Source of the DNA: Hydnum rufescens UP504
Taxonomy: Eukaryota; Basidiomycota; Agaricomycetes; Cantharellales; Hydnaceae
NCBI GenBank assembly: GCA_014904985.1
Contig: MU128927.1
Location: forward strand, 85,107-149,106
Direction: 5' to 3'
DNA length: 64,000 nt
Under the pieces are notes generated by a model. It saw only the letters and a list, made by a program, of their open reading frames with translations. It searched no databases and had not been told where the DNA came from. Below, piece after piece: positions 1,825-49,480 of this stretch. Positions within the stretch are counted from its first letter, which is position 1. Each line of letters starts with the position of its first letter. A program made the translations under genes and the position numbers.

Positions 1825-4800
1825 ATGTTGGCTGCAGTCATGGCTGCCAAGAAGAGGAGGGAGAAACGAACACAGCAAAAACAAAAACTACCTTCAAGTC
1901 GAGGTAGTGAGCATCCATCCAAAAGGCCTAGGTGCATGATGGCCCCTTCTGTACCTGCATCTGCCCAAGACATTGCCGATTCACCTTTGCCCTCCCTTGA
2001 AGCATTGGTCGTGCCTTGATTCCCTCCTGATCCTCCCCTTACACGTTCTGAGTACTTCAGCTGGGATCATGTGGAGGTGCAATATGCAGCTGAAACGAGC
2101 CAGAGTAAAATACAAGTAATGAAGGACAAACGATCTCAGCATGCACTTCATAAACTTGCTCAAGCAGATAGATGGAACAGAGAGGTGTTACCCAGCCTTA
2201 TCCATCCCTACATGAAGGTTGCTCGGGGGTGCTTCTCAGACCTCTCAGCAGAAGAGCCCCATAGTCCTGCAGTATGTAGATGTGGGGCACCTTGACCCCT
2301 TTGGGTTCTCTGCATTTCCATGGAGCAACTGGAAGAGGTTGTGCTGATGGTCTGTGTATGCCGTCTGGCTGCCATCCAGCTTTTCAAGCACAGTTTCTTC
2401 CCATGTGCACCTCTTTTCCCCACATTGGCAGTCAGTCTCGACATGCTTGAATTTGTGGCCTCCCTATTTCTTCATACAGCACCCAATGAAAGAGCATGGG
2501 CTGCGACTCTGGTCAAGTACCTCAAAGCTTGTGGGTATGAGTTTGCAACAGGAGATTCATTTCAGCGATGCTTTGCGAATGCACTTGTGCACTATCAGGT
2601 GCTTGTTCAGTTGGTCAGGGCAGAGATTACTCAAATTGTGCAGGATGATAAGAGAGGGTTAGTCTCAGAGTTGGATGAGAGAATGCTGGTACATGAGCAG
2701 GGATATCTCAATGTTCAGAGTGATCCGAAGCTCTTTGCAAACTCAACTCCTACAAATGCTTCAGTTAATGCTCCTGCCACCATTCTCACTCATGTGTCTA
2801 CCGATCTGCCTCCTGATGTCTGCCCAAATTTCATTCCTGCCAACAATACCCACCCCAGTGAATACTTGAGGTCGCGATGCCCACTTTGTTTTGGAGGAAA
2901 TCATACAGACACACATAGTATGCCATGAGTAGGCTATTATCTGTGACAAGCTGGGATAATAGTCATTCTAACTGCAATGAAACTTATAGAGTCCAGCTCA
3001 TAGTTTGCATTGATGCAAATTTCCAACTTAAGCGGATCCACAACGAAGACTGACAACATGGTCATGAGGGAGAGACAGGGGCATGTGATCCCCCAGTCAC
3101 TTCACCCAAGACAATCATGTTGTCGAGGGACTATTTGGAGTCCTGGGAAAGGAAAATCCTGGAGACTTGTCCCACAAGGCCAGCATGCATGGGACTGAAA
3201 TGCACAGCCAATGAGGGCACTGATTATTATGCAGATTGCCCGGAGGATGATACGGTGGAACCAGGCCTCCATGCACTGAACTTGACCTATGATGCATGTC
3301 AGCAGTCATTTATTGCTGCAGATGAAGATCGCATGAAGGCATCAACCCAGTATTTTGAAGATACTGGGGTAATAGCTCTACTGTGCCATCATGACATACC
3401 ACTTGCTGTTGCAAGCATGTGGACTGCAGGAGAGAAGCAGTTCTATGTCTTTGTGCTGTTGGACACCATCCTGAAACACGTACCGAGTCACTGGAGAATT
3501 GGGGCCCTGTATGACATTGGCTGTCAGATGGACCAGACTCTGAAAAAGTGGAGATTCATGCTGGAATGGCTGCCTTGCTTGGAGTGGGGGTTTTGATTTT
3601 CCATGCGTATGGTCATCAATGGGCATGCCAGCTCTGGTATCATCCTCGCCAATCAGAGCTCTGGGGACTCTCAGATGGTGAAGGGTGTGAGCAGTTTTGG
3701 AGTGAGCTTTGCAGGCTTATCCCTGGACTGTGGGTGACAGGCTATCACCAGCATCTCTTCATTCTTGACCTCCAGGTGGAGCACATTGATGAAGGGAAGC
3801 ACATGGGAATGGGAAAGTGGCTCCAAGGTTGAATTGATCGGTTGCAGCACTGCCTAGAAGAGGCAGAGATGAAGCTCAGTGACTGCTCTCCCAGTTACTT
3901 AATGGAGCAGTTCAAAGCCCAACGAGAATATCACAGCCGACCTGTTTCATGCCAGTCTCAGACAAAAGGTGCCCAAGCTGTGGAATGGATCATATCTCTG
4001 ATGGCAACCCTTGAGGCTCAGCAAGGGAATCTCAAGGATTTGATTGCTGAGGGGAATGATTTGGTCCAAGATGACATGACTGCAAGCAATGAAGTGCAGG
4101 CTGAGTGGCAGGAAAAAGTCAGGCTGCTGAAGGAGGCCATCCAGTGATTGGAGACCATGATCAACAAGAAGACTGATGAGCTGTGGCTAACTGACCGTGC
4201 GTCTGCATCTGAGTTAAATAGGCTCAAGAAGGATAAATGGGTCAATATTCAGCTCAACCTCCATGCACTTCGTGAGCAACTTCTGAAGAAGCTGAGGGCT
4301 AGGAAGTTTGAGCTTGCCACATTGGACCGCGCAAACTTGAGTCGCATCTTGGACCAGAAGACAAAGGCCCATGTCAAGAAAGCTGTGAAAAACCAATCTG
4401 GTGGGATGATGCTACTGTAAATAAATACAATGCAAGGCTAAAGGAACTGGTTGCACTTAGGGGAAGGGGAGGTATTTGGAGAGATGCATACATTCCGCCG
4501 ATGCTCACAATGGATGGCCTGTACAAGCTGGATGTGGATCAAGATATATGGGAAGATTCTCAAGGTGATATCATGGATTTCCCAGATGGAGTTGTGCCCC
4601 TTGGTTGGCAGATCCCTCAGTCAAAGAATGTATCTGGGTCTCACAGGAGGTGGCCAGCTGCCAGCAGGAGCTTGAGAGGTGCAAGGGTGAGCATGCCAAC
4701 CTTCAGATGTGGTTCCATGAAGAGTATTCAGCTGCAATGGACCTCTTCATGGGATCCAAGGATGAAGATGTCTCGTATTTTGGGCTTCTGCAGGCACACC

Positions 4801-5147
4801 AACTGTATGACTGGATGACAGCTTGGAAAAAGGACATAGTCCAAGTGCCCATTGCTCCTGGTGCTCCAAGTTGGGACTCAGTTCGAATGCCTTTGGCGCT
4901 ACATCAACATTATGGTGTTCGGTCTAACATCCAAGTGCAATTGGAACAAGAATCTTTAGTTGCCACTACAACCCCACCATGCCCGGACCATAATTCTCAA
5001 AGTAGAAGGAATCTTGATGATTTTGATGCAAGTTCAGATGATGACTTGGAGGGTGGTGAGCTGGAGGAGTTCTTTGAGCTGGAGGAAGCTGGTTTGATAG
5101 CTGTAGTGGACCAAGCAATTGTAGAACTAGATTTGGATTCAGAATGA
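1825..5147 (+). pseudogene. KDZ transposase copy 1 (CxC1 type), decayed
   Basis: DNA-transposon transposase of the KDZ class. In order: a basic N-terminus (1825); a CRC..VCVC cysteine cluster with FPCAPLFPTLAVSLDMLEF and NERAW (2265-2500), matching the CxC1 domain that accompanies fungal KDZ; a CPLC knuckle (about 2878); VCIDANFQ (about 3004); YDIGCQMDQ (about 3510); HAYGHQWACQLWYHP (about 3600); GLSDGEGCEQFW (about 3665); then a long coiled-coil and an acidic tail to 5147. Broken by in-frame TGA at 2017, 2293, about 3050, 3830 and 4145, a 1-nt frameshift near 3590 and a further frame break near 4400. It has one intron, 2925-2989, whose donor GT reads AT. Introns present in copy 3 are absent. 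Confidence 0.9.
2925..2989 (+). other. KDZ copy 1 intron with a destroyed donor
   Basis: Aligning with copy 2 (intron 26042-26102) puts the exon end at ATG CC (2924) and the exon restart at A GTC CAG CTC (2990), both phase 2. The first two intron bases are AT where GT is needed (CC|ATGAGT). A CCGTGAGT to CCATGAGT change, a CpG transition, would explain it. The acceptor TATAG is intact. Confidence 0.6.
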
Positions 5148-5159
5148 TATTTCCTTTAA

Positions 5160-5430
5160 CCATGTAAATGCTTTGCATAATAAAATGTCTCATCTGCACC
5201 ACAGTAAAGCATTGCAGAATTCTACAAGTTCCAAAGTTGATCTCAAATTGAGCTCAAACCCGACTCTTTTGCTATCAAATACTCATTTGATCACTTTTTA
5301 ATATCAAACATAATACAAGCTTATCAGGCACTATACAGATATCAAAATGACATACCTTTTAAGGCCCCCAAGAGTGTCTGACCAGCCTGGCCAAATACAG
5401 GGTTAAGACCTACCAAAAATGCTCTGCCCA
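5160..5430. repeat. KDZ 3' flank shared with copy 2
   Basis: This stretch resembles 28222-28530, downstream of KDZ copy 2. Both carry several TTGA..TCAA half-palindromes and end with GACATACCTTTT followed by a GGCTGACCAG-like block. The homology stops near 5410/28530, where the two flanks become unrelated, so this is probably the 3' untranslated or subterminal part of the element. Confidence 0.6.
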
Positions 5431-7455
5431 ACCCCACGATGTCAGCAAGGAACCAGAAAAGGCAGCTGATCCTCTGCAGGCCCCTCAGAAGTCGCAAACA
5501 GGAAGAAGGGGAGGCTCGGATCCAGCAAGGTTTGATGGCATTGTTCTTGAAAGCCCAACCAGGCCCTCCTCTTCCAATGCTTCCATGGGACATCCTCTCC
5601 CTGATGTTAACCCTACACCTATGCCTACCCCCATGCCTACCCCTCATTCCAGCCCTAGCCCCTATTGAAACCCTCATTTCTGACCTATTCCCAATATCCC
5701 CCACATTCCCAAACAAGACCCTGAGGCTGCAGAAGTAGCCGAAGGCCTTGAAGGCCTAGGGGATGAAGGTGACAGCTTCTCTGAGTTTCCTGCTGAACAA
5801 TTTGAAGAGCCCCCAGGCTCTGAGGAGCAAAGGGGGTTGTTGGGCCTCCCTACTGTGTCTGAAACTGAGGTGTTTGGCCCCAATGCCCTGCATAAGGCTT
5901 ATTCAAAGGGCCTGGGGGAGGCCTTGAAGGACACAGGGGCTCCTAGTTCATCTGAATCTGATCACATGGTTCCATCGTTTGAAGACTCCACCACAGAAGG
6001 GGAATATATGTCTGGCCTTGAAGAGGTGATGAACAACGAGAGAAACCCAAAGGACCTAGCTAGGCTAGAGGCTGAAAGGGCAATGAGGCTTGAGTCCTGG
6101 CAAGCCAGGGCTGCAGAATTGGCTGAAGAGCATGCTGAGTGGCATTGCCAGACCAAAGGAAAGGGGAAGGAGACTGTGGTGGAGGCAGATGATGAGGCTG
6201 AAGAAGAGGAATTTGATGAAGCCCATACAAAGCCCTTGGTCTCAAGGCTCACTAAATCCCAGACTGAGCATGTTAAACAGCAGGTGGAGGAAGAAAGGGA
6301 GTGATATGCCACCCTAGCCCAGGAGATGCAGGTCCCCACCGAGCTTGTCCTGCAAACTGCTCATGCTCAAACAGGGAAATCACACAGAGGGCCTTGGAAT
6401 GATTTTACCTGGCTCTACTCTGCAGAGAATCCTGACCATGGTGAGCCTTTTGAATTCAGAGATTTTCTGGGCCTATACCAACTGCTTTGAAGGTTTGGCT
6501 GCAGCAGAGCTCTCAGAGATCTATTGAAAGAGAAGGCAAAAGCCTCCAAGGAGGGAAAGGAGGGCTACAAAATGTGGGCCAGAAATATCTCTATTCGACT
6601 GGAGGAAATCAAAGCCAAAGTAAACTGGAAAACATTTTCAGGCTCCTCAAGGGCCTCCATCCTCAAAAACTGGGAAAAGATTTGAGCGAAAAGGTATGCT
6701 TTAATACTGCCTTATTATCAAAGGGCTTCATTGAGGAAGGGAATTCCTAGTCTCACCAAAACTACAACCTCTATGACTTAGCTGCTGTTGGCTTTGTGAC
6801 TGCCCTGGATTCAACTGACGGTGCTGCCATTGCCAATGCTTCAGTCTTTGCCCCTTCCAAAAAAATTGGGGATATTGTTGAACAAATCTTCTGGATGCCT
6901 GCAAACAAATGGAAGTTTATGTACAGCCTTGGGTGGGGCCATCCTATTGACTGACTGAGGGGGGTATTGCTGATTCCAGGTCTTAGTGCTTTGAATCTTG
7001 CTGAAGCCGTGACATTTGAGCCCTCGATTAAAGGGTGGGAGGCCTATGCAGAGGCCAACCCCCTGGAGGATCTTCACTCCACAGTGTCAGGAAAACTCCT
7101 TGAGATGGCGAGGAAGTACCTGTGCACTGTTAAAGGTCCCCTGTATGGAAGGGCTGATCCTCATTGGGCACCTTTCACAGATAGAGTTCTCAAACAAAAC
7201 AGCATCCTTGAGGGCTGGGCAAAGAAAGGGTGGCCCTATGTTGGGTTAGCAAACATCATCTATGACCTCCTTAACAAGGATAAGGGGGTGTCCTTCCGAA
7301 TTCATAATTGGCCCTCCACATGTGCCATCTCTAAGAAGGCCGAAACCTACATCCAAAGCGAACTGAAATGTGTACTGCAAAGCATAGTTGTTGGCTTTGT
7401 GAAAGGAGCCCAAAGGGTGTCTAATCTGTCTGCCTGGGCTGGGGTTTATGCAGGT
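5430..7455 (+). pseudogene. broken gene of unknown function
   Basis: One coding region can be followed through two frames. It opens with a Pro/Ser-rich stretch (about 5430-5650), then an acidic segment (5750-6300), a GPWNDFTWLYSAENP block (6390-6430), a Lys/Glu-rich helix (6520-6620), YDLAAVGFVTALDSTDG (about 6770), and LLEMARKYL and WPYVGLANIIYDLLN (7100-7280). In-frame stops occur near 5667, 6302, 6490 and 6680, with a frame change near 6740. I do not recognise the family; it has the look of multi-copy mushroom genes tied to mobile DNA. The 3' end is cut off by the hairpin-intron array at about 7455. Confidence 0.5.
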
Positions 7456-7468
7456 TCTGGTTCAGGAT

Positions 7469-7582
7469 CTAGAGAAATTAAAAATGAAACATTAGTTCAA
7501 CAGTAATGCAGTGCAAACAGAGCTGCTTACGCTGCTCTTTTTGCACCACAAGTATAAAAAGAAAAAGAAAAAGAAAACTTAC
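7469..7582 (-). other. intron-like unit 1 with hairpin 7511-7546
   Basis: Minus-strand donor GTAAGT at 7582-7577, acceptor TTTCTCTAG ending at 7469. The central hairpin has two mismatches. Confidence 0.65.
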
Positions 7583-7751
7583 CTTCCCCACACCTGCTGC
7601 AGTGGGTGTGGGGTACTGGGACCCTGTACTCTGGCTTGTATGTATGGCGGGTTGTATGGCCCTCCCTGTGGTTTTCATTTGTGGGGGGGTCATTTGCGGG
7701 TTTCGTTTGTGGGTTTCTGGTCTGGGGTTTGTGCAGCTTCTGGTCCAAGAT

Positions 7752-7858
7752 CTAGAGAAATAATAATAGATTAGTTAAAAATTAATGCAGCACAAAAAGA
7801 GCAGCTCATGCTGCTCTTTTTGTGCCACAAGAATAAGCAAATAAAAAATAAAACTTAC
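7752..7858 (-). other. intron-like unit 2 with perfect hairpin 7790-7825
   Basis: Donor GTAAGT at 7858-7853, acceptor TTTCTCTAG ending at 7752. The hairpin has 16-bp perfect arms and a 4-nt loop. Confidence 0.7.
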
Positions 7859-8045
7859 TTGTAGTACCACACACCCGCTGCAGCGGGTGTGTGGCACTCG
7901 ATCTTGCTGGGGCTGTGTACTTCGCCTTGTGTGTACTCTTGCACAGCCATTTGTACAGGTGCTCCCTGTGTCCCATCATCTGGGTGTCAATACACAGGGT
8001 TACAGGGGTTTTTGTGTCGGTATTCATTCATGCAGGATATAGGAC

Positions 8046-8167
8046 CTACAATGTATGATTAGATGTTAGTTAAAAATTAAAGCCCACACAAAAAGAGCAG
8101 CACAAAAAGAGCAGCTTTCGCTGCTCTTTTTGCACAGCTGCAACTACTGGGGGGGGTGGGGACTCAC
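8046..8167 (-). other. intron-like unit 3 with hairpin 8100-8135
   Basis: Donor GTGAGT at 8167, branch-like TCTAATC, acceptor CATTGTAG ending at 8046. Extra direct copies of ACAAAAAGAGCAG lie beside the stem. Confidence 0.6.
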
Positions 8168-8421
8168 TTTGGATAGTACTACACACCATGGTGGGTGTGG
8201 TTCCTGGGGCCTCATTTGGTGCGTTACCAGTGGTCTCGGCCTCGCTTAGCATGTTGCTGGCAGTCACGTTCTTGCTTGGCATGTTGCTGGTAGTTGCGTC
8301 TTCATTTGGCACATTGCTGTTGGGCGCATTTGATGCACCACTGTTGGGCATGTTGCCATTGGGCATGTTTGGGCCCTCATCGTTTCATGGCTTTTTGTTG
8401 TGCCTTCGACCAGGCTTCAAT

Positions 8422-8526
8422 CTAGAATAATAAAGACTTGTCAGTATAAAAATTCAATGCAGCGCAAAAAGAGCAGCTTTCACTGCTCTTTTTGCACTGT
8501 TGTATCTACTAATCAAAAGAACTTGC
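8422..8526 (-). other. intron-like unit 4 with hairpin 8463-8497 and GC donor
   Basis: Donor GCAAGT (the minor GC-AG class) at 8526, acceptor TTATTCTAG ending at 8422. This unit lies within the left arm of the 8.83-kb palindrome. Confidence 0.6.
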
Positions 8527-9233
8527 CTTGGGACCACACACCTGCAGTGGCAGGTGTGTGGTCATGTGCCTGCCTTTTCAGGCGATTGCCTGTTGTGGTT
8601 GTGGAGATACGAAAGGAAGATGTGGACTCAACACTGGCAATTGCCAGTACTTGAAAAGTGCCCAAGGGGTGGTGCTAGAAGCATGATACATATTAATAGG
8701 ATGTGTCTAAATGTGGATTAAATACTATATAGCAAATATTTGTTTAAAAATGCAAAGAAGAAGATAAAAGTCAGAGCTCAGTAAGGCACGATATGCCTGA
8801 TTGCAAAGTGGATTGGGCCACTTCTATGCATCAGAATTGGCCCAATCCACTTTGCAATCAGGCATATCATGCCTTACTGAGCTCTGACTTTTATCTTCTT
8901 CTTTGCATTTTTAAACAAATATTTGCTATATAGTATTTAATCCACATTTAGACACGTCCTATTAATATGTATCATGCTTGTAGCACCACCCCTTGGGCAC
9001 TTTTCAAGTACTGGCAATTGCTGGTGTTGAATTGCACAACTATGCCCCCCACACAGCAATGCCCAGAAAGGCAAGTACATGACCACACCCGCTGCTGTGG
9101 GTGTGTGGTCATAAGGTGAGTTTTTTTCTTAGAAGATATAGGTGCAAAAAGAGTAGTGACAGCTACTCTTTTTGTGCTCCTTTGAGTGTTCATACTAATG
9201 TTGCTTTTATTATTCCAGATCACAGGTCCAAGG
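8425..9233. repeat. about 800-bp palindrome, centre 8821-8837
   Basis: Sequence left of 8820 is repeated in reverse complement right of 8838. In the core (8640-8820 against 8838-9013) I count about three mismatches; outside it the arms diverge but still include an intron-like unit on each side. The 17-nt spacer is 8821-8837. The array switches from minus to plus orientation exactly here. Confidence 0.9.
9116..9218 (+). other. intron-like unit 5 with hairpin 9142-9177
   Basis: Donor GTGAGT at 9116, branch-like ACTAATG, acceptor TATTCCAG ending at 9218. The arms read GTGCAAAAAGAGTAG and CTACTCTTTTTGTGC, so an inner arm position differs from the consensus on both sides. Confidence 0.65.
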
Positions 9234-9359
9234 CCTGAGATAAAACCCACCACATGACATGGGCCTGAACAACAAGAGCCAAAGCAAAACAAGTGATGGG
9301 CTGCCCAATGAGTGGCCCCAGGAACCACACCCACTGTGGCAGGTGTGGTACTATTTAAG

Positions 9360-9452
9360 GTGTGTCTCCCCCCCCAATAGATATGGTAGCACAAAAAGAG
9401 CAGTGAATGCTGCTCTTTTTGTGCTGCCTTGAATTTTTAAGTTTAACTGATA
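9360..9452 (+). other. intron-like unit 6, 5' part (split by pogo)
   Basis: Donor GTGTGT at 9360, hairpin 9389-9424. The 3' part with acceptor TATTCTAG is at 12324-12337. Without the transposon the segment is 107 bp, like its neighbours. Confidence 0.65.
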
Positions 9453-12321
9453 TACAGTCATCTACTGTCACTTGCATCATATGGGGACTTGCATCAGATC
9501 CCTGTAACTCCTTCAATTCTGCTTTATTTCCCATGCAGTCTTCTTTGTACCATTTGTAGACATGTAGATACTCTAGCTGGAAATTTTGAAGTAAATTGGA
9601 TGAGGGGGTCTTGAGATATGGAGTAATTATGTTAATGAAATGAGAAATTTGGATAGAATTCCAGGCTGATCATCCCCTACTGCACATGTATCCCCCTGCC
9701 TGCCCCGGCAAACTTCAAGGACTTAAAGATTACATATTTGGGATGATGTTTTGTTGTTGGAGTGGAGCATTATTTATTTGTATCAAGGAAGAAAAAGTGA
9801 GGACAAATTAAGGAAAATTTCTTTCCTCGGCGCTTTCCCCTCCTGGAAGACATGGTCGGCAGAGCTGAATCTCAGGCACGTAAGACAGAGAAGGCCTCAC
9901 AGGCACATGACAAAGTGAAAAAGGACCTGCTTGAGGCATACAAAGTTGATGTAGAAAAGGCATGTCAGGAGGGACTCCCAAATCCATCAATTTGTGCATT
10001 CACCTGAAAGAAAGGCCAAGGGCACCTGTACAGCACTATAACAAGACTCTATAATGGTGGCTGCACCCAGCGCGATGCAAATGCCACGTTAGCTCATCTA
10101 ACAAAGGAGCAGGAGGAGACCCTATGCGAGTTTATCATGTCCATGGCTGACCAAGGCTTCCCTCTCACACATGAGCTCATGGAGGGCTATGCTCTGGAAC
10201 TAATTCATGTGAACAAACCCCACATACAGAATCTTGGGAAGAGATGGCTTGACCATTACCTCACCTGATATGGGCCCAGATCTCAATGACATGGGGTGCA
10301 CCACTGGACACTGTCTGAGCAAATGCTGTTAATCCCACCACAATAGAAGGATGGTTTGCTCTTTTGGATAAGACTGTCAAGGAGTACAACATTGAACCCA
10401 AACATACATATGGTTTTGATGAGACTGGATTCCCCATCGGTGAAGGTCAGCCACCCCAAGTAGCAGCTCGCAAGCATACCAAGACACAGCACTCCACGTG
10501 TGGAGGCGGCCGTGAGAATATCACCGTTCTTAATACCTTCTGTGCTGATGGCTCCTGCCTCACACCCATTGTCATCTTCAAAGCAAAACAACTCAGCGTG
10601 GGCTGGATGCAAGACAATCCTCTAAAAGCATCGTATGTACCATTAACAAAAGAGGATGGGAGCCACACTTACCTCACCTCCATAGTATCTCGTGTACCCC
10701 AAAAGGCTGGACAGAGAACCGCCTTGCAGTCAGCTACCTCAAAGACTTTGATAGTCAGACCAAATCAAAACTTGCTCACCCTGATGAGTATCGACTCCTA
10801 ATCCTCGACGGACATGTGTCTCACTATTCAAAAGAATTCATTGAAGAGGCACGACACCATCACATTGTTGTGATGTGCTACCCACCGCATACAACCCATG
10901 TTCTTCAAGGGCTTGATGTTGTTATCTTTGCCGTTGTCAAAGCAGCATGGTCCAGAGCGCTGGACAAGTGGGAACGACAAACAGGGGATAATGTTATGAA
11001 GGATGTCTTCCTCCACATATATGCAAAAGCTCACCTCAAGGCTTCACACAATCAAACATCTGTCAGGCATTCAAAAAGACTGGTGTATATCCCATCAACA
11101 AAGATGCAATCACTGTAATGCAGATGGCTCCAGCTCTAGAGCACTCGATTACTGGTTCACTTGTCATTCCAGTCAGTACACTGGTCAAGTGTCTTATTGG
11201 CACATTTCGCGAGATTCTGGACGAGAATTCTCAAGAAACAGGGCCTCACGCACCCGAGGATGGAAGCCCTAGGAGTCCGTCAGCCCCCAATGGCCTTATA
11301 ATTGACCCTGTGCTACTCACACCTTCGACACCACAGCGTCTCCACATCACGTTGATGGGATCATCTGTCAGCTTCCTTGTTCACTCTTCCCCAATGTCAG
11401 CTTCATCATCACTCCTGCCTTTTGTGTATCAAAAACATAAATATTTGCCAAAAATTGATTGGACATGCACCAAAACACCTTCTCCAAGCCGTGCTCATCG
11501 CCGCATCTTGAGTGCCAAGGTTGAACAATTGTGCTCTGACCTTCGTGGGGCAAAGTGCCGCATTGATGCTCTAGAGGATGCACAGGATGTCAACAATGGC
11601 CAACTGGCACTGGTGTCCTTTCAGGTGGAAAGGTCCCGCTGCCAACTCGCTCACTATGAGAAGAAACAAAAATCAACTCACCACCTCAAGCTCGCAGTTG
11701 AAGGGGAGGTCGTAACACATGATGACTTCCTTGACCGTGTTAATAGGGCAGAAGCAGTGAAAATGGCGAAGGAGGCTCAAAAGGTGGCCAACAAGGACCG
11801 TCGCGTGCAGGGGAAAAGGGTTGCTGCAGCAAAGGGCGCCTCAGCAACCCATCGGACACAAGCATGGGAAGCGGCAAAACAGCAGAATGATGCTGCCGAG
11901 TTGCATTGGAAGGGCGAGTCTGCATGTTGTCTGAAAGAAGGCCGTGTGTTGCCAAAGAAACTGGAACCTTTGAAGCGAAAAGACATCTGGGCTGCATTGG
12001 GGAGTGCTGGCAGCATACCAGGCATGGATGGAGGGTCAGGACCAACACTGGATAACAAGGGATCATCAGAAAGCAGTGATGAGGACAACGTATAGGCTGT
12101 GGGAAAGGTTGATGCAAGTGCTGATAAATCCAAAATATGCCCTGCTTCATCCCTTTTCAAAATTCTCATGCATCTTATTATGAAACAACTCGCCGTATCA
12201 CCAGTGCTATCTTGAGTAGCCCCCCTATATACACAAGACTATAAAACTACAAAAAAGTGACCGAACACGGACTTATGAATGAATTTGTAACTTCTGATGC
12301 AAGCAATGGTAGATGACTGTA
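9453..12321 (+). mobile_element. pogo/Fot1-like DNA transposon
   Basis: The 5' end at 9453-9479 (TACAGTCATCTAC...TTGCATCA) is repeated inverted at 12293-12321, with about six mismatches clustered mid-way over 30 bp. A TA target duplication flanks it at 9451-9452 and 12322-12323. It encodes a pogo-type transposase (DDD catalytic class) now full of stops. It sits inside an intron-like unit of the hairpin array, so it is younger than that array. Confidence 0.9.
9852..12095 (+). pseudogene. pogo transposase (CENP-B HTH plus DDE_1), decayed
   Basis: N-terminal helix-turn-helix region (9852-10270: ITRLYNGG, LTKEQEETLCEFI, NLGKRWLDHYLT), then a DDE_1 domain: TYGFDETGFPIG (first Asp, about 10410), LLILDGHVSHYS (second, about 10797), HTTHVLQGLDVVIF (third, about 10893), KTGVYPINKDA (about 11080). 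An unbroken frame from 11118 to 12095 gives a charged coiled-coil tail ending in an acidic SSDEDNV. Breaks: TGA near 10008, 10266 and 10282 and frameshifts near 10320, 10700 and 11040. The TGA at 10266 stands where relatives have Arg (RY), fitting CGA decay. Confidence 0.85.
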
Positions 12322-12440
12322 TATGTTCATATTCTAGGTCACAACATCCGCACGAACATGCCACCAGACGATAAACAATGCAAACCAGACACCCGCCACA
12401 GCAGGTGTCTGGTTCTATATTTAAGTATTTAATATTTAAG

Positions 12441-12540
12441 GTATGTAATTTTCATGTACCCAACAGCACAAAAAGAGCAGCGAAAGCTGCTCTTTTTGTG
12501 CTGCTTTCAATGTCTCTACTGACTGCTTTAATTTTTCTAG
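12441..12540 (+). other. intron-like unit 7 with perfect hairpin 12466-12501
   Basis: Donor AAG|GTATGT at 12441, branch-like ACTGAC, acceptor TTTTTCTAG ending at 12540. The hairpin has 16-bp perfect arms with a GAAA loop. Confidence 0.7.
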
Positions 12541-12808
12541 GTGATGGCCTGGTCCCAGGCCCCAAACAAGACCATGCCAAATGATGAGACCCAACTGGTG
12601 GGGCCCAAACAGCAACACATGAACCCAAAACACACCAAACACAAACCCATGCCAAATGAACCCACACCAAACAAAACAGCGCCAAACAAAACCAAGCCAA
12701 GCAAAAACCCAATGCGACACAAACGCAAGAGGTGGCTATGTGCCGAATGAGTGGCCACACAAACCACACACCCACCGCAGCTGCAGTGGGTGTGTGGTTT
12801 TATATAAG

Positions 12809-12900
12809 GTAAGTGTACCCTGAACGGCACAAAAAGAGCAGCAGATGCTGCTCTTTTTGCACTGATTTCAATTTTTAGCTAACATTATTTATTATTCTAG
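12809..12900 (+). other. intron-like unit 8 with hairpin 12827-12862
   Basis: Consensus donor AAG|GTAAGT at 12809, branch-like GCTAAC at 12878, acceptor TTATTCTAG ending at 12900. This is the best match in the array to fungal splice signals. A CACACACCCACCGCAG palindrome lies directly upstream. Confidence 0.7.
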
Positions 12901-13507
12901 GCTATCGTCTGAACCACAAACAGCAACATGAAGACCCACTGAATGAATGCTCCCCCCCCCCCCAGAAATGACAATGCCCCCCCAAAACAAGTGTGAATGA
13001 AACCCGCCAATGACGACCAGCCAAGGAACACAGCAGACAAAACCCAGGAACAAAAACCCATGACACAAGCAAGACCACGGGACCCCCAGACAAAGCACAC
13101 ACCCACTTTGGTGGGTGTATGCTGATTTTAAGGTACAAGGCATCAAAGGCACAACCCACCATGTTAGGCTTGAGGAATGAAGCTAGATGGGAGGTTGGTC
13201 TACCTCAGGTTTTTTTTTTTCCTTTTTTACTAACATTTTCGTCTGAACCCACAACCCCCACCAACCCCTAATCAAGAGCCACGACCCTGCCAAACAAACC
13301 CATGAATGGTAATGAATTGAAAACATGATGCAGAACCGCAGAGTTCCAACAGAACTCACCACACCCAACCAGTGAACTGGTGAAAGAGAACAGGCCAGAC
13401 CACACCTGCGAAACACACCAGTTGCTGACCAGCCCCATATGCAAATGATGTGACCACGCCAAAATGAGTACCCCACACCTGCCTTGGCGGGTGTGGGATA
13501 CCACAAG

Positions 13508-13614
13508 GTATTTTTTTAAAATTTTCTATATGTACAGTGATGCAAAAGGAGCAGTGCAAGCTGCTCCTTTTGCATCATTTCAAACTTTTTTACTAACATA
13601 AGTTATTATTCTAG
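13508..13614 (+). other. intron-like unit 9 with compensated hairpin 13539-13576
   Basis: Donor GTATTT at 13508, branch ACTAAC at 13592, acceptor TTATTCTAG ending at 13614. Arms read GATGCAAAAGGAGCAG and CTGCTCCTTTTGCATC: an A to G and an A to T change relative to other units, both matched on the opposite arm. Confidence 0.7.
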
Positions 13615-14189
13615 GATGCAATTTGAAGATCCCAAAATGATGACACCCCAATGGACACCCACAATCCGTCCAAATGACCTGCCTAACAGTGAACTGCCAA
13701 GGCACGCCCCCCCCCAAAACGGTGGCTGGTGAGCTGGCCAAATCCCGGTCCAAGCCCCCAAGGCAGCAATGCCTGGTACCACACCTGCTGAGGGGGGTGT
13801 GGTACAAAGGTGTGTCTTTTTTTTAATTCTAGGTTATCATACAATAGATACTGCCCGCAACATCCCCCCCCTTCGAAAACTGGCCGAACCCCCGATGAAG
13901 CAAGGGAAGGTACCACACACCTGCCCAAGTGGGTGTGGTGCTACTAGATATATATATATGTATTTAAATTTCTATGGATGGTAACCACACCTGCCCAAGT
14001 GGCTGTGGTGTTTTTTTTTGTTTTTTTTTGGATTTCTATGGACAGTACCACACACCTGCTAGAGCGGGTGTGTGGTGCTACCATTTTTAAATAAATAAAC
14101 AAGTCATGAAACACAGGACTGCTGAATGAAACCCCATTGACCCTGGGTAGCCTATGCATAATATAGTGATAATAAATAAATAATTATAA

Positions 14190-14460
14190 ATGGATCACAT
14201 TATCCCTGATAAGCCCATATGGCCCACTGCAAGTCTGAGATTCTCCAAGTCCCAGTTTCAGCCAATTTTCGGCCATTTTGGCCAATTCTGGGCCAGGAGG
14301 TGAAATCATAAAAATGGCCATTTTGGCCGAAATAGTGATGGGACCTACTTAGGTACCATTATCTGCCCCAGAAGTGGTACCTAACTAGGTAGGCTTAGAT
14401 GACTGACCAAGGTGCATCCTTGGTGGAATCATAATTCTGAGAGAGATGTCTCTCATTATA
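14190..14460. repeat. array end block, shared (inverted) with 35750-35980 and partly 29370-29490
   Basis: Contains ATTATCCCTGATAAGCCC, a run of GGCCATTTTGGCC-like short inverted motifs, then CCTACTTAGGTACC and GGTACCTAACTAGG, which pair as a 14-bp stem (14344-14357 with 14377-14390, one mismatch). Both the 14-kb and 36-kb copies adjoin hairpin-intron sequence on the same side, so this looks like the outer end of that repeat family. Confidence 0.7.
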
Positions 14461-15179
14461 AATGTCTTCCCCATCTATGGACCAGTGTCCAAAGAATTGG
14501 AAGTGTCATTGGCTATTGGTGAACACGAGAGTCCACTTCTTGTACATGAAGAAGTGTGCAACACTCTTGTTGGCTAAACAAGAAAACATTGGTTCATTCC
14601 TCATAAACCACATGTAGAAATACTGACATACCACTTGTTTTGGACAACTGGTAATTCAAAGCCCTCTCAAGACTCTCACAAGTGTCAAAGTGAGGAATAG
14701 AGATCCCAGCAAGAGAGTAGTGGAGGGTCAATAACTGGGGAGAGGGTATGAGGTCACCAGCTTCATTTTCCCACATCATTGGAATGCTTGAACCACTGGA
14801 AGGCAGACAGCTAGCCTCACTACTGAGAGTGGGGGTGGAAGTCAGGCCTTACCCAGCACCAGCCAGTCCACCACTCTCACTGCGGTTTGTGGCAAGAGGG
14901 GTGGACTTTGCATGGTGTGCACTGCAGTGCTCATGTCGATGAGTGGGGGGAAGATGACTGGAAGATGAAGGTGTAATATGCATCTGGTCTGCTGGCAGAT
15001 TATGTCACTGGAACTATATTACCCCTCATCCAGATCTGAAGAGTCTAATATACAGTACTCTGGGCCAGAAGTATGCCAACAAAGTTATTAAGTTGCGAAT
15101 GAGATCAAAAGAATTATATACATATTAAGCATTATCAGCACATAAACAACTTAAAATTCAGGTCTGGACAAAATCACAG
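14461..15179. other. no recognisable feature
   Basis: AT-rich DNA with only short open frames. A minus-strand stretch at 14594-14779 (ESLERALNYQL) faintly resembles the SLEDALNCIV segment of the next gene relic and could be a detached piece of it. Confidence 0.3.
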
Positions 15180-25009: not shown

Positions 25010-28000
25010 ATGCTGGCCAGCCAAAAGAGGAGAAGGCAATGGGGGGCGAAAAAGTCTCAAGTTGAGGCAGCAGGAAGGGAACACACTGATGAGCTGGCAG
25101 AGCCATCATCATGGGCTTGTAAAACACAATGTACAAATTGCTCTTCACATACTGGCTCCTCTGTTGGGGAGACCAATTCTGCACTCAACATGGATTCTCC
25201 TGGCTTTGGCTTAGATCTGTCTGCATTATCTCTTGCTTCTGGTTCACCATCCCCCTTACTGCCACCTCATGCTGAGCGGTCTGAGTTCCTCAGTCATCAG
25301 CCTCTTGACATCATTTATGAGCCTGATCATCTCACAGCCAAAATACAGCTATTGGATGATAGGCAATCTCACCATGCTTGTCATAGACATGCTCAAGCAC
25401 AGCAGTGGAACAATGAGGTGCTCCCATCCCTAATTTGCCCATTCATGAAGGCAACATGGAAATGATTTTCAGCAGCCTCTGGGAGTTGGACACCATGTAA
25501 ATGTAGTGGAAAGGTTTCTCATCTTGGGGTGTTGTGTGTCTCCATGGAATGGCTAGAGGACAATGTCCTAGAGGTGTGTGCATGCCATTCTGCTGCTGTC
25601 CAGCTCATTGAGCATGGGTACTCCCCATGCACACCTCTTCACCCTACACTGGCTGTCAGCCTTGATATGCTGGAATTTGCTGCCACTCTACTTCTTCACA
25701 TAGCCCCCAATGAAAGGGCATGGGCAGAAACCATAGTTGTGTACCTTAAGGCTTGTGGGCATGAATTTGCCACTGGGGACTCATTTTGCTGATGCTTTGC
25801 AAATGCGCCTGCTTACTATCAGCTGGTTGTTCACTTGGTTAATGGGGGAGATGCCAACAGTCTTGGATGAGGCAATGCCTGTCAATGAGTGAGCATACCC
25901 TAGTGCTAATGCAGAGGCACCAAACAATTGTATGGCTGCCTGGCATAGTGCTTCTGATAGCATATCATGACCACATGAATACTTAAGATCAAGGTGTCCC
26001 CTTTGTTTTGGAGGGAATCATACAGACTCTTCTAACAGGATGTAAGTAGAGGAGTGCTTCTTAGTCCCTTTGTTTTTGCTTCTAACTAGCTTAATCATAC
26101 AGTGTGCAGCTAATAGTCTGTATTGATGGAAATTTCCAGCTGAAACAAATGCATGATGAAGACTGGAGATGTGGCCATGAGGGGGAGACTGGGACATGCA
26201 ATCCTGCTGTTATGTCACCAACATCAATCATCTTGTTGAGGGAATATCTCAAGGAATGGGAGAAGAGAATACTGCATGTCCAGGAACTGAAATCATTGCA
26301 CTCTGGGCAGAAATGCAGGGCTAAAGAGTCTGTTGAGGATGACACAGGAGACCCTCAAGAAGCTGATGAAGTGGAGCAGGGACTATATGGCCCCAACTTG
26401 ACATATGATGCATGCCAAGAATCATTTATTGCAGCTGATGAAGATCATATAAAGGCATCTATGCAATACTTTGAAGATACTGGCATGATGGCTCTCCTGT
26501 CATCATGATATGCCACTTTTTTCAGCAAGCATGTGGACTGCAGGAGAAAGCAGTTCTATGTGTTCGCACTGATGCAGAGACTATTGGATTACCTCCCCAG
26601 TCACTGGAGAGTTGGCACCTTGTATGATATCAGTTGTCAAATGGATCAGTCTCTCAAAAAGTGGAATTTTATGCCAGAATGGCAGCCATGTCTTGAGTGG
26701 GGTGTATCTATATTCCATGCCTATGGCCATCAATGGGGCTGTCAGCTCTGGTACCATCCACAAAAGTCCGAGCTCTGGGGTCTGTCAGATGGTGAAGGTT
26801 GTGAGAGATTTTGGAGCAAGCTTTGGAAACTCATCCCAGGCTTGCAGGTGATGGGCTATCACCATCATATGTTCATCTTGGACCTTCAAGTTGAACATAT
26901 TGATGGAGGCAAGCAAATGGGAATGGGCAAGTGGCTGCAAGATTGTGTTGACCATGCACAGATGCACCTAGAAGAAGCTGAAAAGAAGCTTGGTGATTGT
27001 TGTTCAAGCTACCTACTTGACCAGTTCAAGGCCCAATGAGAATATCACAGTCAGCCCATCTCACAACAATCTCAGACAAAGGGAGCACATGCCATTGACC
27101 AAATCATGTCCCTGAATGCAACTCTTGATGCTCAGAGAGAAAATCTGAAGGATGTCATTGCAGAGGGGAATGGTTTAGTACAAGATGATTCCTCTGTGAG
27201 TATATTGGTGCAGGTGGAGTGGCAGGAGAAAGTAAGGGCCCTGAAGGGTACTATCCAATGTCTAGAGAATGTGATCACAAAGAAGACAGAGGAGCTACGG
27301 TTGTCTGATTGAGCCTCTGCTGCCAAGTTGACAAAGCTCAAGAAAGATAAATGGGTCAATCTACAACTTAACCTCCATGTGTTGTGTGAGCAGCTTCTCC
27401 GGAAGCTATGAGCTAGAAATTTTGAGCTTGTGACATTGGATCGTGCTAACTCAAGTCGTATACTGGACCAGAAGACCAAGGCCCATGTTGAGAAGGCAGT
27501 CAAGGGACAGTCAGGTGGAATTGAGGCAACTGTGAAGAAGTACAACAGATGGCTGAAGGAACTAGCAGGACTGCGAGGAAAAGGGGGGATCTGCAAAGAT
27601 GCCTACATTCCCCCATTGCTCTCTATGGAGGGCCTGTATAAACTTGATGTAGATCAAGATATCTGGGAAGACTCTAGGGGTGATATGGCAGATTTCCCTG
27701 ATGGAGTTGTGCCCCCATGGCTAGCCAACCCCTCAGTGAAAGAAGGTATCTGACTTTCTCAGGAGGTGGCCAGCTGTCATGAGGAATTGGAGTGATGCAA
27801 GGCTGAGCATGCAAATCTTTGGATGTGGTTTGCAGAGGAATATTCAGCAGCAAATAATGTGTTCATGGGGTCTGAGGATGAAGAGGTTTCCTATTTTGCT
27901 CTTATCAGGGTGCACCAGCTATATGATTGGATGATGGCATGGAAAAAGTACATGGTCCATGTCCCAACTGTGTCTGGAATGTCTGTCCCCAATATGTGTG

Positions 28001-41984: not shown

Positions 41985-42608
41985 GTCATTAGCTCTTTTG
42001 CTTCGTTCGTGGACTCACCAAAACATGGGGCAATGGTTTTGGAAGTGCGAAAACGGGGGATGTCGCTTCTGGCATACGTATCACTATGAATCATTGTGAA
42101 GTATAGATTACAACTAATCTACGTTGTTTCTTTAGGCTGGTCCAATCATTGTGGCGCGTCTGAACCCCCCACCCCCCAGCCTGAAGACTTTCAGATGAGG
42201 GGAACTCCCCAATCGTCCGTCCCCCAGTCGTCTGTCCCCCAGTCGTTCGTCCCCCAGTCGTCCGTCCCCAAATCGGCATTGCCACAATCGTCGTTACTGC
42301 AGTCGTCGTTCTCTCCATCGTCGTTCCCTCAATCGCTGTTCCCGCAATCATCATTCCCGCAATCATCATTCCCCCAAGCGTCGTTCCCGCAATCGACCTC
42401 TCTCCCCTTGGCGCAACCGTCCCCCCATCCTTCCGTCTCTAGCACCGTGCTATCGAATCGAATCGTTTCTTTGGAGATAGAGCTCCAGGAGGTCACAGAG
42501 GCGCTAGAGGCGATGACCCAGTCGAGGGATGAAGCGCACCTTGCACTTGGAAATATTTTGGCGGCCCTGAATACCATTGTAGAAAACACACAGCTTGGTG
42601 GCACCTAG
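41985..42608 (+). pseudogene. GRF-like zinc-finger plus coiled-coil gene relic (near KDZ copy 3)
   Basis: The first exon includes QNMGQWFWKC..GGCRFW (about 42020-42075), a GRF-like zinc-finger core. After a probable short intron ending TTTCTTTAG (about 42135), the second exon carries PTPQPEDF, a repeated PQSSV linker and a C-terminal coiled coil (IVSLEIELQEVTEALEAM) to a stop at 42608. The frames of the two exons do not join under the simplest splice. Order and layout match the relic at 23.75-24.26 kb. Confidence 0.5.
42207..42400 (+). repeat. 15-bp minisatellite in the GRF-like gene
   Basis: About 13 units of (C/T)CCCAGTCGTC(C/T)GTC, in frame, coding PQSSV/PQSSF. Confidence 0.8.
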
Positions 42609-43247: not shown

Positions 43248-46200
43248 ATGGCCAACAAAGGAAAGAGAGGAGGACCAAGCCAGCCGACTACACCATCCCT
43301 CCCATCCCCCATCACCCTGCCAGTAAAGTCTTCAGGTCCATCTGCTAAATCCAGTAAACGTCCCAGTCGAGCATGATTTCCAAAGGCCGAAATTATTGGT
43401 CAAGGCCCCTCAGGACCCATATATACAGGGGATTGTAGTGTATCTACATGAGGTACTCCACAATCCGAGGATCTCCACCATGCCGTTCCTTCCGATTTCA
43501 CAGCAATGTACCCACTGAATCTGGACTATGATCCCTATTTGGTCCCCGAGACGCACACGCACTATCTAGCAAAAGAGTCGAGGCATGCGAGACGCAAACA
43601 TGTGCAAGCTGCTCGCTGGAGCCAAACCGTCCTTCCTGCTCTCATTAGACCCTTCATGCAGTGGAAGCGCGAGCAAATGTTGTCATGACAGACACCTGCC
43701 TCGCAAAGGGGGACTGATAATAGCATGTGCTCCTGCTCCAGTCGTCACCAGCCTCTGAAGGTTGTGTGTGTATCGATTGAAGGTGTGCTCACTCTCCATT
43801 ACTTATAGCTGACGCCTGTTTGTTTATGCTTACGACTTCAATCTAGCTCTTTGTGATGTTGATATCGCTGTCTGCACCTGCCGCCCAGCCCCACAACAGC
43901 TGGTGCAGATGGGGTACTTCCCTTGCTCACCAGTCTATCCCACACTTGCTGTGAGCCTGGACATGCTTGAGCTTGTCTCTACCCTTTTCGTCCTTGCTGC
44001 GCCTAATGAAAGAGCATGGGCCACTACAATAACGAAATACCTCAAGAACTGTGGCCATGAATTTGCTACCGGAGATGCTCTGCGACATCGATTTTCATCC
44101 GCCCTTTCCCAGTATCAAGTTCTGATGCAACTGGTGGATGGGGAGATGGGTAAAATCATTGATGATGCAAGGGAGAAGACTACTGTGACGTTCAGGGCTC
44201 TCGATGATGAGATACCTGTTCATGGGTGAGAGTATGCAAATGTGCAGATGTTGGCTGGTCGCATTCAAATTGCACGCGATGATATCAGTCACCCATCAAC
44301 CCCTCCACCTTGAGAAAGACCCAGCACCAATCTCCGCGATGCCTGCCCCCTTTGCTTTGGTGGTGATCTGGATATAGTAATACCTGGAGTCCATCTCATT
44401 GTGTGCCTCGACACCAACTTCCAGTTGAAGAGGAACAGGGACAAAGATAGAAGAAAGGAGTTTGCGGGCCTACCAGGATCTTTGGATCCTAAAGTCGTCT
44501 CACTGAGAACAATCTTCCTCAGTGAAGTGCAGATCCAGGAGTGGGAAGAGAGGGTCAAGGTTTTGCGACCATCCAAACCAAAGACGGGTCATAAGCGGAA
44601 AGCTGGCAAGATGGAGGAGACTGAGGGTGATTTGATGGGTGGAGGATGGCCTGACGAGATTGAACCGGGCATGAACTTACCCAATGCGACTTATGATGCC
44701 TGTAGAGACTCCTTTGTGGCTGCCGATGGTGACCATATCAAGGCATTGTCCACGTATTTTGACTCAACTGGTGTGATGGCCTTGCTCTGTCATCATGATC
44801 ATCCCCTGGTACTGGCGAACCTGAAAACAGCTGGCGAAAAACAGTTCTATGCCCTTGCTCTCATATCCGCCTTGATGGAGTCAATTCCTAACCATTGGAG
44901 AGTTGGAGTTCTCTACGATATTGGGTGTCAGATGCATAGGACACTTCAAAAATGGGACCTCATGCCTGAATATCTGCATCGACTCAAATTCGCCATCTCA
45001 ATATTCCATGCCTATGGACACCAATGGGCATGCCAATTGTGGTATCACCCTCAGAAGGCTGCGATGTGGGGTTTATCTGATGGAGAGGGGTGTGAGCGCT
45101 TCTGGAGTGATCTTCGGAAGCTTATCCCAGGTCTCCGTGTCGCAGGTGTGAGTTGGAGTTGGTGATTGCATTTGAATGTTACCTGTATTCCTTACCAAGT
45201 TTTTCTTCTAGCATCACCGTCGTCTTTTCATTCTTGATCACCAAGCTGAGCACATCCTTGAGACGAAACATGAGGGGATGGGAAGGTGGTTGTGTGACCG
45301 GATCCGTCGAGCTGATGAGCAGCTTGGTGAAGCCTTGATGGCTGTGGGGAAGCGTCCCCATGGGTTGGATGTGGAAGGGCTCCTTGTGCAGTTCAATGAA
45401 CAGTGGGAGTTCCAAACCAAGTCCGTCGATTGTGAGTAGATTATTTGTGTATGCTTTATCATGATAGTAATCATTGGCTGTCTTAGGGCAATCAAAAACA
45501 AAGGGAACACGAGCGATAGAGCAAATTCTATCCCTTGAGACGACGGTCCAATCCCAACATGCAATACTTGTACACCTCTCGAAGGAATTAGGGAGTTTGG
45601 CAGTGGATGATAGTGTTGGGGGCAGGCTTTACGTGAGGAGTGGAAGGAGAGGGTGAAGATGGCCCAAGACACTATATCGCAACTTGAAGACAATATTGCA
45701 AGGAAAACCAAGGCACTTCGACTTGAAGACCGTGCGTCGGCAGACCGTCTTGCCAACCTCAAGAAGGACAAATGGATCAACCTACAACTCAATATCCGTG
45801 TCCTTTGTGACCAGCTAATCACAAAACTCCATGCTCGCAAATTTGAGCTTGCTAACTTAGAGCGTGCACATGCAAGTCGGGCCATGGGTATGTGTGCAAA
45901 ATTTTACATCCGATTTCATGCCTATAATTGATCGGACTCCAGATCAGAAAACCAAGAGCCATGTTGAAAAGGCGGTTAAACAGTGTGCCCCAGGAATCGA
46001 GGCTACAGTCCACAAATACAATGCCAAGCGGAAGGAAATGCTGAAGGAGCGAGGGAAGAATGGTGTACAGAGGGATGCATATGTTCCACCGGAGCTTGTG
46101 ATGGAGGGATTATTCAATTTGGACATCGATCAGGACATTTGGGAGAATGCCGACATGGTGGACTTCAAGGGGGGGGAGATTCCTTTGTGGCTTGCTAATA

Positions 46201-47139: not shown

Positions 47140-49480
47140 ATTGGTCTCTTGATATAGAACACTGATGGACCTGTTCACATTGACCTTGATGTTGGAACAG
47201 AGTGGCCCATTCTGAAACTGCACCAACACCTGGGTGCAATACTGGATGCTGGGATCGTACTTCCAGACAAACAGATTGGACTCTGGCACCCTACTTTCAA
47301 TGAGTGGTGATGGCAGTCAATTTCTACCATGGAGATAAGTGTCAAAGATACAAAGAGGGTTCTTGCTCATCTCTCTACTGTCCAGACCATAGATGATGTG
47401 GTTTTTGCAGATGAGAGGCAGAAGTTAGAGCTGGCCTCCCAATTACCAATTTTGAAACAGCCTCCTAGCCCTGTAGTCAACCAGCATCCCACCAAAATAC
47501 CCCAAAATTCTCTCAGCTCTACCTATCCTGCCCAATTTTGTCATTACACATCAATTGGAGATCACACAAGTTTGCTTGGAGATCACATGAGTTCAGCTGG
47601 AGATCATGCCAGTTCAGTTGGAGATCGCATGAGTTTGGTTGGAGATCGCATGGGTTTGGTTGGAGATCGCATGGGTTTGGTTGGAGATCGCATGGGTTTG
47701 GTTGGAGATCGCATGGGTTTGGTTGGAGATCGCATGGGTTTGGTTGGAGATCGCATGAGTTCAGTTGGAGATCGCACAGGTTCGGTTGGAGATCGCATGG
47801 GTTCAGTTGGAGATCGCACGGGTTTGGTTGGAGATCACACAGGTTTGGTTGGAGATCGCACAGGTTTGGTTGGAGATCATGCAGGTTCGGTTGGAGATCA
47901 CGCGAGTTTGGTTGGAGATTGTGCGAGTTCAGTTGGAGATCACCCAAGTTTGTTCCAAGGGCACACGAGTGCATTTGGAGATCACAGAGACCATCAGCTG
48001 CCTCATACTCTGGTCTTTGTCACAACAGATGTCTTTCCAACCACCTATGTGGCTGACATGGCAGTCTTTATGGCAGCAGCTCTTTCTCTGAAGCACCCAA
48101 ATGAGGGCCAAATTGATTCACTGATGAGAGTGCATTACCCCTCGACTAGTAGATTCCCAAGGACAAAGTATTATGAGATCCAAAGAACTGGGTGTTTCCA
48201 TTAACCATGGTTTTCTTCAAACCTTTATTGATGCTGGGCACACCAATTCAGGTACATACACAAGGCTGAGTCATGCTGTGAAGGCTGCCAAGGAACAAGG
48301 TATGGAATTATCTCTATCATATGAGTATCATACACTAAATCATTACAGAGCTGAAAAGTGGCACCTCTCAGGGAAAGATTGTTCCTTCCCAGACACAAGG
48401 GGCCATGAGTACTCACATGCATGATCTCTGACTGTATACAATTGACTCAGACACACCCTGCATCCCTGCCCCTTCACAATACAGTGATGAGAGTTTCCAA
48501 GTTACTTTTGTGACCAATGGCATCTCCATGACTGGAACAGACAAGAATTTGGTTCTAGTGAGTTATGAAACCCTATCATCCTGTATGTTTTGTTGACACC
48601 ATGAATGTGACATGGCTAGTTGAAGTATGAATGATTTGGACATCCATAGAACAAATTGGAAAGTTCTACAAGCCACCTCTCCATGGTACAGACCCTCGAG
48701 CATTCTGGGACTCTGAAGTCAATTCAATGTTGTGGGATCTTATCATGTTTTCAAAATTTCAAGCACTCATAGAAGTCTTTGACCGGCATGCAAAACACTA
48801 TCTTGTGGACATTCTCCATCATATGTTAAAACATTGTCACATTCTTATACTGTGGGCTCATTTTACTTCATCCAGCAATCAGCTGTGTTGAAACTGCCCT
48901 TTTTACACCACTTTCAGGGTCAATGAGCATGGAATTCCCACCTATCTCTTGCAGAATGCAATCCCTGGAGATGACATGGCAAGGCCATATAAATTTACTG
49001 GGACAGAGCAAGATACCACCTTCCTTGCTCACACAATTGCTGCACTCATTCATCTTTCTTTTTCCTCGGCACTTGTGGAGTACATGGACCTTGATGATTA
49101 TGAAGATCCAGAAAATGAACACCTGGTTCATTTCCACATGGTCTTTTTACTGACATCCAAGGTTAGTGCTTTTTGTAATTTCTCTTTACTGTCTTGCCTC
49201 ATTGTGGTATTTGGATATAGGTGTATATGTTCCTGGCCAAGGCTTCTCTGTCTTTGATGTTATAGCTCATAGTGCTGGAAGGTGAGTTTTGAACCTCTAT
49301 CCATATTTCAAGGGACTGGCTAAAGCCATGGTTACAGTTATCCCAGTCCAAATAATCGTATCACTGGGAATCATCTCGGGACCAAGGACCAAGGGCATAT
49401 GAGCACTTTGCCAAAAACCATGTGTGTAATGGGATTTGCCAAGGACTTCAGCTCCCTATTGTGTCCAACCCAGTAACAGG
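47140..49480 (+). pseudogene. alpha-kinase-like gene relic with heptad-coded repeat
   Basis: A leading segment (HIDLDVGTEWPILKLHQHLGA, LWHPTFNEW; stop at about 47310), then the 291-codon frame 47329-48204 carrying VGDRMGL repeats, GVSINHGFLQTFIDAGHTNSG (about 48190), RAFWDSEVNSMLWDL (about 48690), YKFTGTEQDTTFLAHTIAALIHLSF (48985-49060) and LVEYMDLDDYE. An intron (49160-49220) is followed by VPGQGFSVFDVIAHSAG and, later, HFAKNHVCNGICQGLQLP (about 49415-49460). The order F(T/S)GTEQ, a hydrophobic helix, FDV..H and a C-terminal NHVCN..C recalls fungal alpha-type kinases. Catalytic residues cannot be assigned. Several stops and frame changes. Confidence 0.45.
47556..47985 (+). repeat. 21-bp minisatellite, about 19 units
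   Basis: Unit GGTTGGAGATCGCATGGGTTT with variants; codes VGDRMGL on the plus strand. Five adjacent units near 47640-47745 are identical at the protein level, pointing to recent homogenisation. Confidence 0.9.

Follow-up and report, generated by a model that had tools for sequence, protein, structure and literature searches.

The 64,000-nucleotide (nt) stretch of the Hydnum rufescens UP504 genome analysed here and called the window (contig MU128927.1, positions 85,107 to 149,106 of the forward strand; part of contig C19 of the 63.2-Mb, 539-contig genome) carries, at 7441-14414, one copy of a repeated transposon, hereafter the array element, whose interior consists of units resembling spliceosomal introns built on a hairpin. 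Nine of these could be placed to the base within 7469-13614; four belong to the minus strand and five to the plus strand. Read on its own strand, each shows a GC palindrome, then a donor, then a GCACAAAAAGAGCAGC-type stem and, after a branch motif of CTAAY/CTGAY type, an acceptor of the type TTATTCTAG. This bears out the initial annotation of the locus, which had described at least nine units combining the signals of an intron (donor, branch-like motif and acceptor) with a hairpin, and a GC palindrome before every donor, as well as a span of 92-122 nt, found in the eight uninterrupted units, and a single GC donor, which is the GCAAGT of unit 4. The tandem cluster that it had also described proved to be a divergent array, in which the strand changes from minus to plus after the fourth unit.

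The minus-strand units are located at 7469-7582 (unit 1; GTAAGT...TCTCTAG, 114 nt, with hairpin), 7752-7858 (unit 2; GTAAGT...TCTCTAG, 107 nt), 8046-8167 (unit 3; GTGAGT...TTGTAG, 122 nt) and 8422-8526 (unit 4; GCAAGT...ATTCTAG, 105 nt), and those on the plus strand at 9116-9218 (unit 5; GTGAGT...ATTCCAG, 103 nt), 9360-12337 (unit 6; GTGTGT...ATTCTAG), 12441-12540 (unit 7; GTATGT...TTTCTAG, 100 nt), 12809-12900 (unit 8; GTAAGT...ATTCTAG, 92 nt) and 13508-13614 (unit 9; GTATTT...ATTCTAG, 107 nt). Unit 6 is split by a nested Tc1/mariner-pogo-type transposon that is foreign to the array element (9455-12319, plus strand; inverted ends CAGTCATCTAC / GTAGATGACTG, TA duplication) and contains a degraded DDE_1 transposase (Pfam DDE_1, E 7.1e-16); minus this insert and one TA, the unit measures about 111 nt. 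Two further plus-strand units are degenerate: one, recognized by eye at 13095-13250, combines a palindrome with a donor-like GTACAA and a branch-like ACTAAC and has no hairpin, and the other, at 13778-13840, keeps palindrome, donor and acceptor and has lost its hairpin. The stretch at 13910-14081 holds GC palindromes without introns (13913-13940 and 14048-14075), followed by A/T-rich sequence.

The array element as a whole measures about 3.5-9 kb and has inverted ends (CAGGCTGG...CCAAGGTG). Its right end, GCTTAGATGACTGACCAAGGTG, falls at position 14414 of the window and closes a right terminal inverted repeat at 14340-14414 (plus strand). The left part of the window copy is missing: similarity to other copies begins at 7441, most of them extend further left to an end that reads CAGGCTGGTCAGTCACATAGGGGACCTAAT or close to it, and the window copy instead adjoins 2 kb of DNA followed by a KDZ transposase element ending at 5389. 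Allowing up to two changes, 323 left ends were counted in the genome; right ends, for which an exact match was required, number 316. Part of these ends were checked for array membership. Among 20 pairs of ends, taken from 34 paired by eye among the first places listed for left and right ends, 12 are flanked by exact target-site duplications, half of them 7 bp and half 8 bp long, and three more by duplications with one change, giving 15 of 20; in a shuffle control that considered 7-bp matches only, six of seven bases or better matched in 7 of the 20 pairs, against a mean of 0.14 and a maximum of 3 for shuffled pairings. Terminal inverted repeats and target-site duplications, the two hallmarks of DNA (cut-and-paste) transposons, are both present. 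The observed/expected CpG ratio is 0.33 in the window copy (7441-14414, pogo insert included), 0.91 in copy L009 and 0.85 in copy L026; such strong differences in CpG decay among copies are as longer cytosine methylation on some of them would give.

The divergent arrangement recurs throughout the elements that were scored (eight bounded copies and that of the window; score cut-off 40, loci with nested or unpaired ends being left unscored): in nine of nine, all 35 minus-strand units lie to the left and all 44 plus-strand units to the right of the centre, with 5-12 scored units per element. In the window, the centre is a palindrome at 8628-9030, made of two 198-nt arms that are 97% complementary and 7 nt apart. 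An alignment of the 36 half-centres of 18 such centres shows long conserved blocks, including AAATATTTATTATATAGTATTTATTCCA, and in 15 of the 18 the middle has TATA-like strings to either side, a configuration suggestive of a bidirectional promoter. At the other extremity of an arm, the last unit of L026 is followed by intron-less palindromes and AATAAA-rich DNA; the same copy has a CAG-type trinucleotide run (L026:3840-3915) shortly ahead of its first right-arm unit.

The units carry correctly ordered spliceosomal-intron signals far above chance. Introns of the U2 type have GT..AG ends, a GTRNGT donor and a CTRAY-type branch shortly before YAG, a consensus to which the units conform. The sample in which signals were counted comprised 20 large loci (up to 9.9 kb each), 18 loci of 1.9 kb and window positions 7001-15000, which together contain 261 hairpins; 198 of these could be oriented by the palindrome alone and the other 63 were excluded from the counts. 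An exact GTAAGT, GTGAGT or GTATGT lies between palindrome and hairpin on the sense strand in 140 of 198 units, and a hexamer with one change in 54 more, whereas equal-length stretches of the opposite strand contain an exact donor hexamer in 7 of 198 and a one-change version in 107. The pattern GT[AG]NGT occupies this interval in 146 of 198 units (mean of 50 shuffles 16.7, maximum 24), and branch and acceptor follow in order in 178 (shuffle mean 53.7, maximum 69, again in 50 shuffles) or, under a slightly different rule, in 177 of 198 on the sense and 26 of 198 on the antisense strand. Across the genome, GTAAGT occurs 15-45 nt ahead of a hairpin arm 645 times (326 forward, 319 reverse), and its reverse complement ACTTAC, in the same interval, not once. 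The donor position is itself mostly constant, at 8-14 nt past the palindrome in 173 of 194 sampled units with at most one donor change. Of the 198 units, 138 yielded an intron call, with lengths of 86-122 nt (median 104 nt), AAG|GTAAGT and TATTCTAG|GT as the commonest borders and a median of 21 nt from the branch A to the end of the AG (5-95% range, 17-33 nt); because the calling rule itself demands GT or GC, a branch and AG, only the remaining letters and the length are free in these calls. A search for host introns in the KDZ gene of the window, too decayed to serve for comparison, gave one candidate with all three signals.

Another conserved feature of the units is the hairpin, which occurs in the 63.2-Mb genome 2251 times with the exact stem and 528 times as a G-C variant, while reversed control patterns have no match there. 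The pattern is absent from viral_contigs and matches 30 times in the 257 billion bases of prokaryote genome_contigs, a number so low that these matches were taken as unrelated hairpins. In 51 introns with a mean pairwise identity of 0.66, pairing is kept in 853 of 913 stem cells, and double changes convert A-T to G-C and C-G to T-A; the set was selected for diversity among matches to a hairpin pattern in which each arm could differ by two changes, so that the pairing counts lean towards the hairpin. Hairpins inside the intron-like units have been kept over much divergence; since palindrome arms could also stay matched by DNA-level correction, stem pairing alone is no proof of a role in RNA. 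If folded in the transcript, the hairpin would loop out about 36 nt and thereby reduce the median distance between donor and branch from 83 nt to about 47 nt (142 introns). Judged from these sequence signals, it is very likely that the units are spliced.

What the arms would produce is another matter. With an exon filter of 60-330 nt, beyond which exons were dropped, 55 exons of 133-321 nt were obtained, whose lengths leave residues 0, 1 and 2 modulo 3 in 14, 28 and 13 cases, respectively; 21 of the 55 contain an open frame, for a shuffle mean of 15.8 and a range of 9-21. The exons of one arm measure 229, 140, 165, 174, 163 and 160 nt, and the longest open run in the right arm of L026 after splicing, 158 codons, is matched by 18.5% of shuffles. 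As the exons have no consistent reading frame, the arm products are probably non-coding, and a coding role is unsupported. That the arms are instead a true protein-coding gene with many repeated exons, decayed in most copies, would agree with some long open frames, of up to 220 codons, and with an open-frame exon, described below, that occurs in seven places and lies directly ahead of an array donor in both that could be checked; but with exon lengths out of phase and open frames not clearly in excess of shuffles, protein-coding exons were rejected and we regard this explanation as very unlikely. Protein pieces of the window's KDZ and pogo elements, compared with the 20 large loci, matched only in L028, away from the array.

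The ends of the array element link it to the KDZ superfamily. Four KDZ elements that were fetched from the genome, 94-95% identical to that of the window, and the window's own end in ...GACCAGCCTG, and 12 bases, CAGGCTGGTCAG, are common to the left end of the array element and the ends of five KDZ elements. Furthermore, its CA..TG ends and 7-8 bp duplications match what PMC12730594 gives for two published Kyakuja families (CA..TG ends, 7-bp duplications) and for Zisupton (8 bp). Because of the shared terminal bases, the CA..TG ends and a duplication length as in Kyakuja and Zisupton, we infer that the array element is most likely moved in trans by a KDZ-superfamily (Kyakuja/Zisupton-like) transposase; at least 150 matches to KDZ transposases, from 416 candidates, are present in the genome. 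Unlike a KDZ element proper, it has a body of intron-exon arrays, and queries with the KDZ pieces of the window found no KDZ transposase in its bounded copies, so that it can at most be a non-autonomous member of the superfamily. The KDZ transposase element next to the window copy (2296-5389) has a CxC1-like cysteine cluster just under the Pfam cut-off, and more KDZ matches lie at 26173-26703 and 44467-44991. KDZ and TET/JBP frequently travel together in fungi (PMC12730594); in the present genome Tet_JBP has no match above the cut-off and one below it, and TET/JBP was rejected as a cargo. Elsewhere, the window contains a tandem array with a period of about 126/247 bp at 504-1679 (9.5 copies of the shorter period), 15-bp-type arrays at 42207-42395 and a 21-bp tandem repeat at 47555-47941 (18.4 copies).

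The initial annotation had placed the repeat among introner-type elements, which is right in so far as a multiplied mobile element is present, with many ends and duplications, and unsupported as to the mobile part, which is the whole transposon and not the unit of about 100 bp. Introners that derive from DNA transposons are known in other eukaryotes (PMC9860276). Like introners, the array consists of sequences that have multiplied and bear splice signals within a mobile element, and some introner families also have duplications and inverted ends; it differs in that its introns are internal to a larger element and no solo copy appeared in the sample. A reading in which the hairpin unit itself jumps into genes as an intron, with the arrays as landing hot spots, could also draw on the ordered intron signals and on the copy number of the exact-stem hairpins. 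However, the isolated copies that it predicts were not encountered: among 29 isolated-looking units (18 plus 11, chosen by eye among the earliest places that genome searches listed, and representing part of the copies), none has non-array sequence on both sides, and individual copies creating introns in host genes were not seen in this sample. Of the first 18, 17 have other units within 1.9 kb and the remaining one, L036, is a single cut-off unit with unrelated sequence upstream; the other 11 have, by eye, an array-type exon on at least one side, with the strict palindrome pattern in 5 of 11. The exon palindrome accompanies the unit in most cases, all nine scored elements keep the outward order, and no mobile ends were found at or near splice sites, the ends and duplications being those of the whole element. 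Since the sampled copies occur only in clusters, an observation that the initial annotation had itself named as speaking against introners, this reading was rejected on the sample and appears highly improbable.

Non-array sequence on one side was found in two of the 29 units, L036 and L127. In L127 (C15:301900-302400), the upstream exon is a 79-codon open frame that replaces the GC palindrome directly ahead of the array donor; of everything observed, this comes closest to an array donor being used by a host-like exon. It occurs in seven places (contigs C15, C4 at 84730-84966, C268, C266, C28, C156 and C35), the other six copies being 85-94% identical in protein, with one TGA in C268 and a surrounding 376-codon frame in C156. 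The frame runs to an array donor at C15 and C4, the two places where this could be checked, and the DNA similarity of the remaining copies stops 6 or 7 bases short of the donor position; it may be a captured gene exon that became joined to the array. Together with the outward orientation of the units, this case would also fit an element that spreads because its outward promoters and splice sites link it to neighbouring exons of the host, its insertions into genes being tolerated or driving host transcripts. Yet the open-frame exon may represent a mere captured gene fragment, and we consider such joining distinctly unlikely as the explanation of the arrays.

An explanation at the level of DNA would make the units subterminal transposase-binding sites or cruciform-forming repeats, with splice-like motifs as by-products and RNA irrelevant. 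DNA transposons usually have subterminal repeat arrays in inverted orientation, the hairpin and the GC palindrome are strongly kept, and intron-less palindromes persist near the right end, all of which would suit this explanation; it leaves unaccounted for, however, the order, spacing and strand of donor, branch and acceptor (645 against 0 genome-wide, 140 against 7 among the 198 oriented units), and is in our estimation unlikely, even if such a role of the palindrome can be true in addition to splicing. In foldback elements, long inverted arms of repeated units around a centre are the mobile termini. The array element also has long inverted arms of repeated units around its centre, but the intron signals of its units keep a strict strand order and its short terminal repeats lie outside the arms, which are not themselves the mobile ends.

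Weighing these alternatives, we think it likely that the array forms the inside of a non-autonomous, KDZ-like transposon composed of two divergent, multi-intron and apparently non-coding transcription units. From the conserved central palindrome, acting as a bidirectional promoter, two divergent transcripts would start; along each arm, running outward, exons of 133-321 nt (after the filter), typically ending in the GC palindrome, would alternate with introns of about 104 nt, which the host spliceosome would take out. The transposon itself would probably be the one to benefit, as transcription and splicing might hold it in active chromatin or make its RNA resemble host RNA.

Several observations weigh against this interpretation. 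The evidence for a KDZ link consists of the 12 terminal bases in common and the length of the duplications, and the array element has inverted terminal repeats, which the two published Kyakuja families from Laccaria are said to lack (PMC12730594). A duplication was seen by eye in only one of eight copies of the first bounded set (L009, L010, L011, L014, L021, L023, L026 and L027), namely AACTACA in L010, so that copies are often rearranged or have mispaired ends. Three of the 18 centres have no TATA-like strings on one or both sides, and in the right arm of L026 two of seven acceptors and one donor are decayed. Intron-less (reverse-transcribed) copies, sought as proof of splicing with a spliced-junction query against the genome, were absent among the 40 of 667 candidates that were scored; this is expected of a DNA transposon, but provides no positive proof of splicing. 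Finally, a benefit with regard to silencing is pure inference.

Such a benefit would have parallels in other organisms. In Cryptococcus, stalled spliceosomes feed RNA interference. In human cells, introns shield DNA from HUSH silencing (PMC8770142). HUSH and the SCANR system of Cryptococcus show that the fate of mobile DNA in a genome can depend on its intron content and on splicing; these are host systems, whereas the array is a mobile element. Under either HUSH-like shielding or splicing-linked RNA interference, the element would have reason to keep good introns. A bolder proposal, which we advance tentatively and hold to be somewhat doubtful, is that a protein-less transposon has been selected as a substrate of the spliceosome: its divergent promoter would drive two long non-coding RNAs, and its chains of introns with hairpins would persist since splicing itself protects it, for instance by letting its RNA pass for an intron-containing host RNA, or keeps chromatin open for the transposase that acts in trans.

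No description of such an element was found among the titles and abstracts listed in searches of open-licence PMC papers. If its arms are spliced, nature would offer, in many copies, a test of the idea that mobile DNA is protected from silencing by introns, with more than 300 ends of each kind in one genome and copies that vary both in the number of their intact introns and in CpG decay. The array element could also serve as a store of introns ready for use, at a stage preceding introners.

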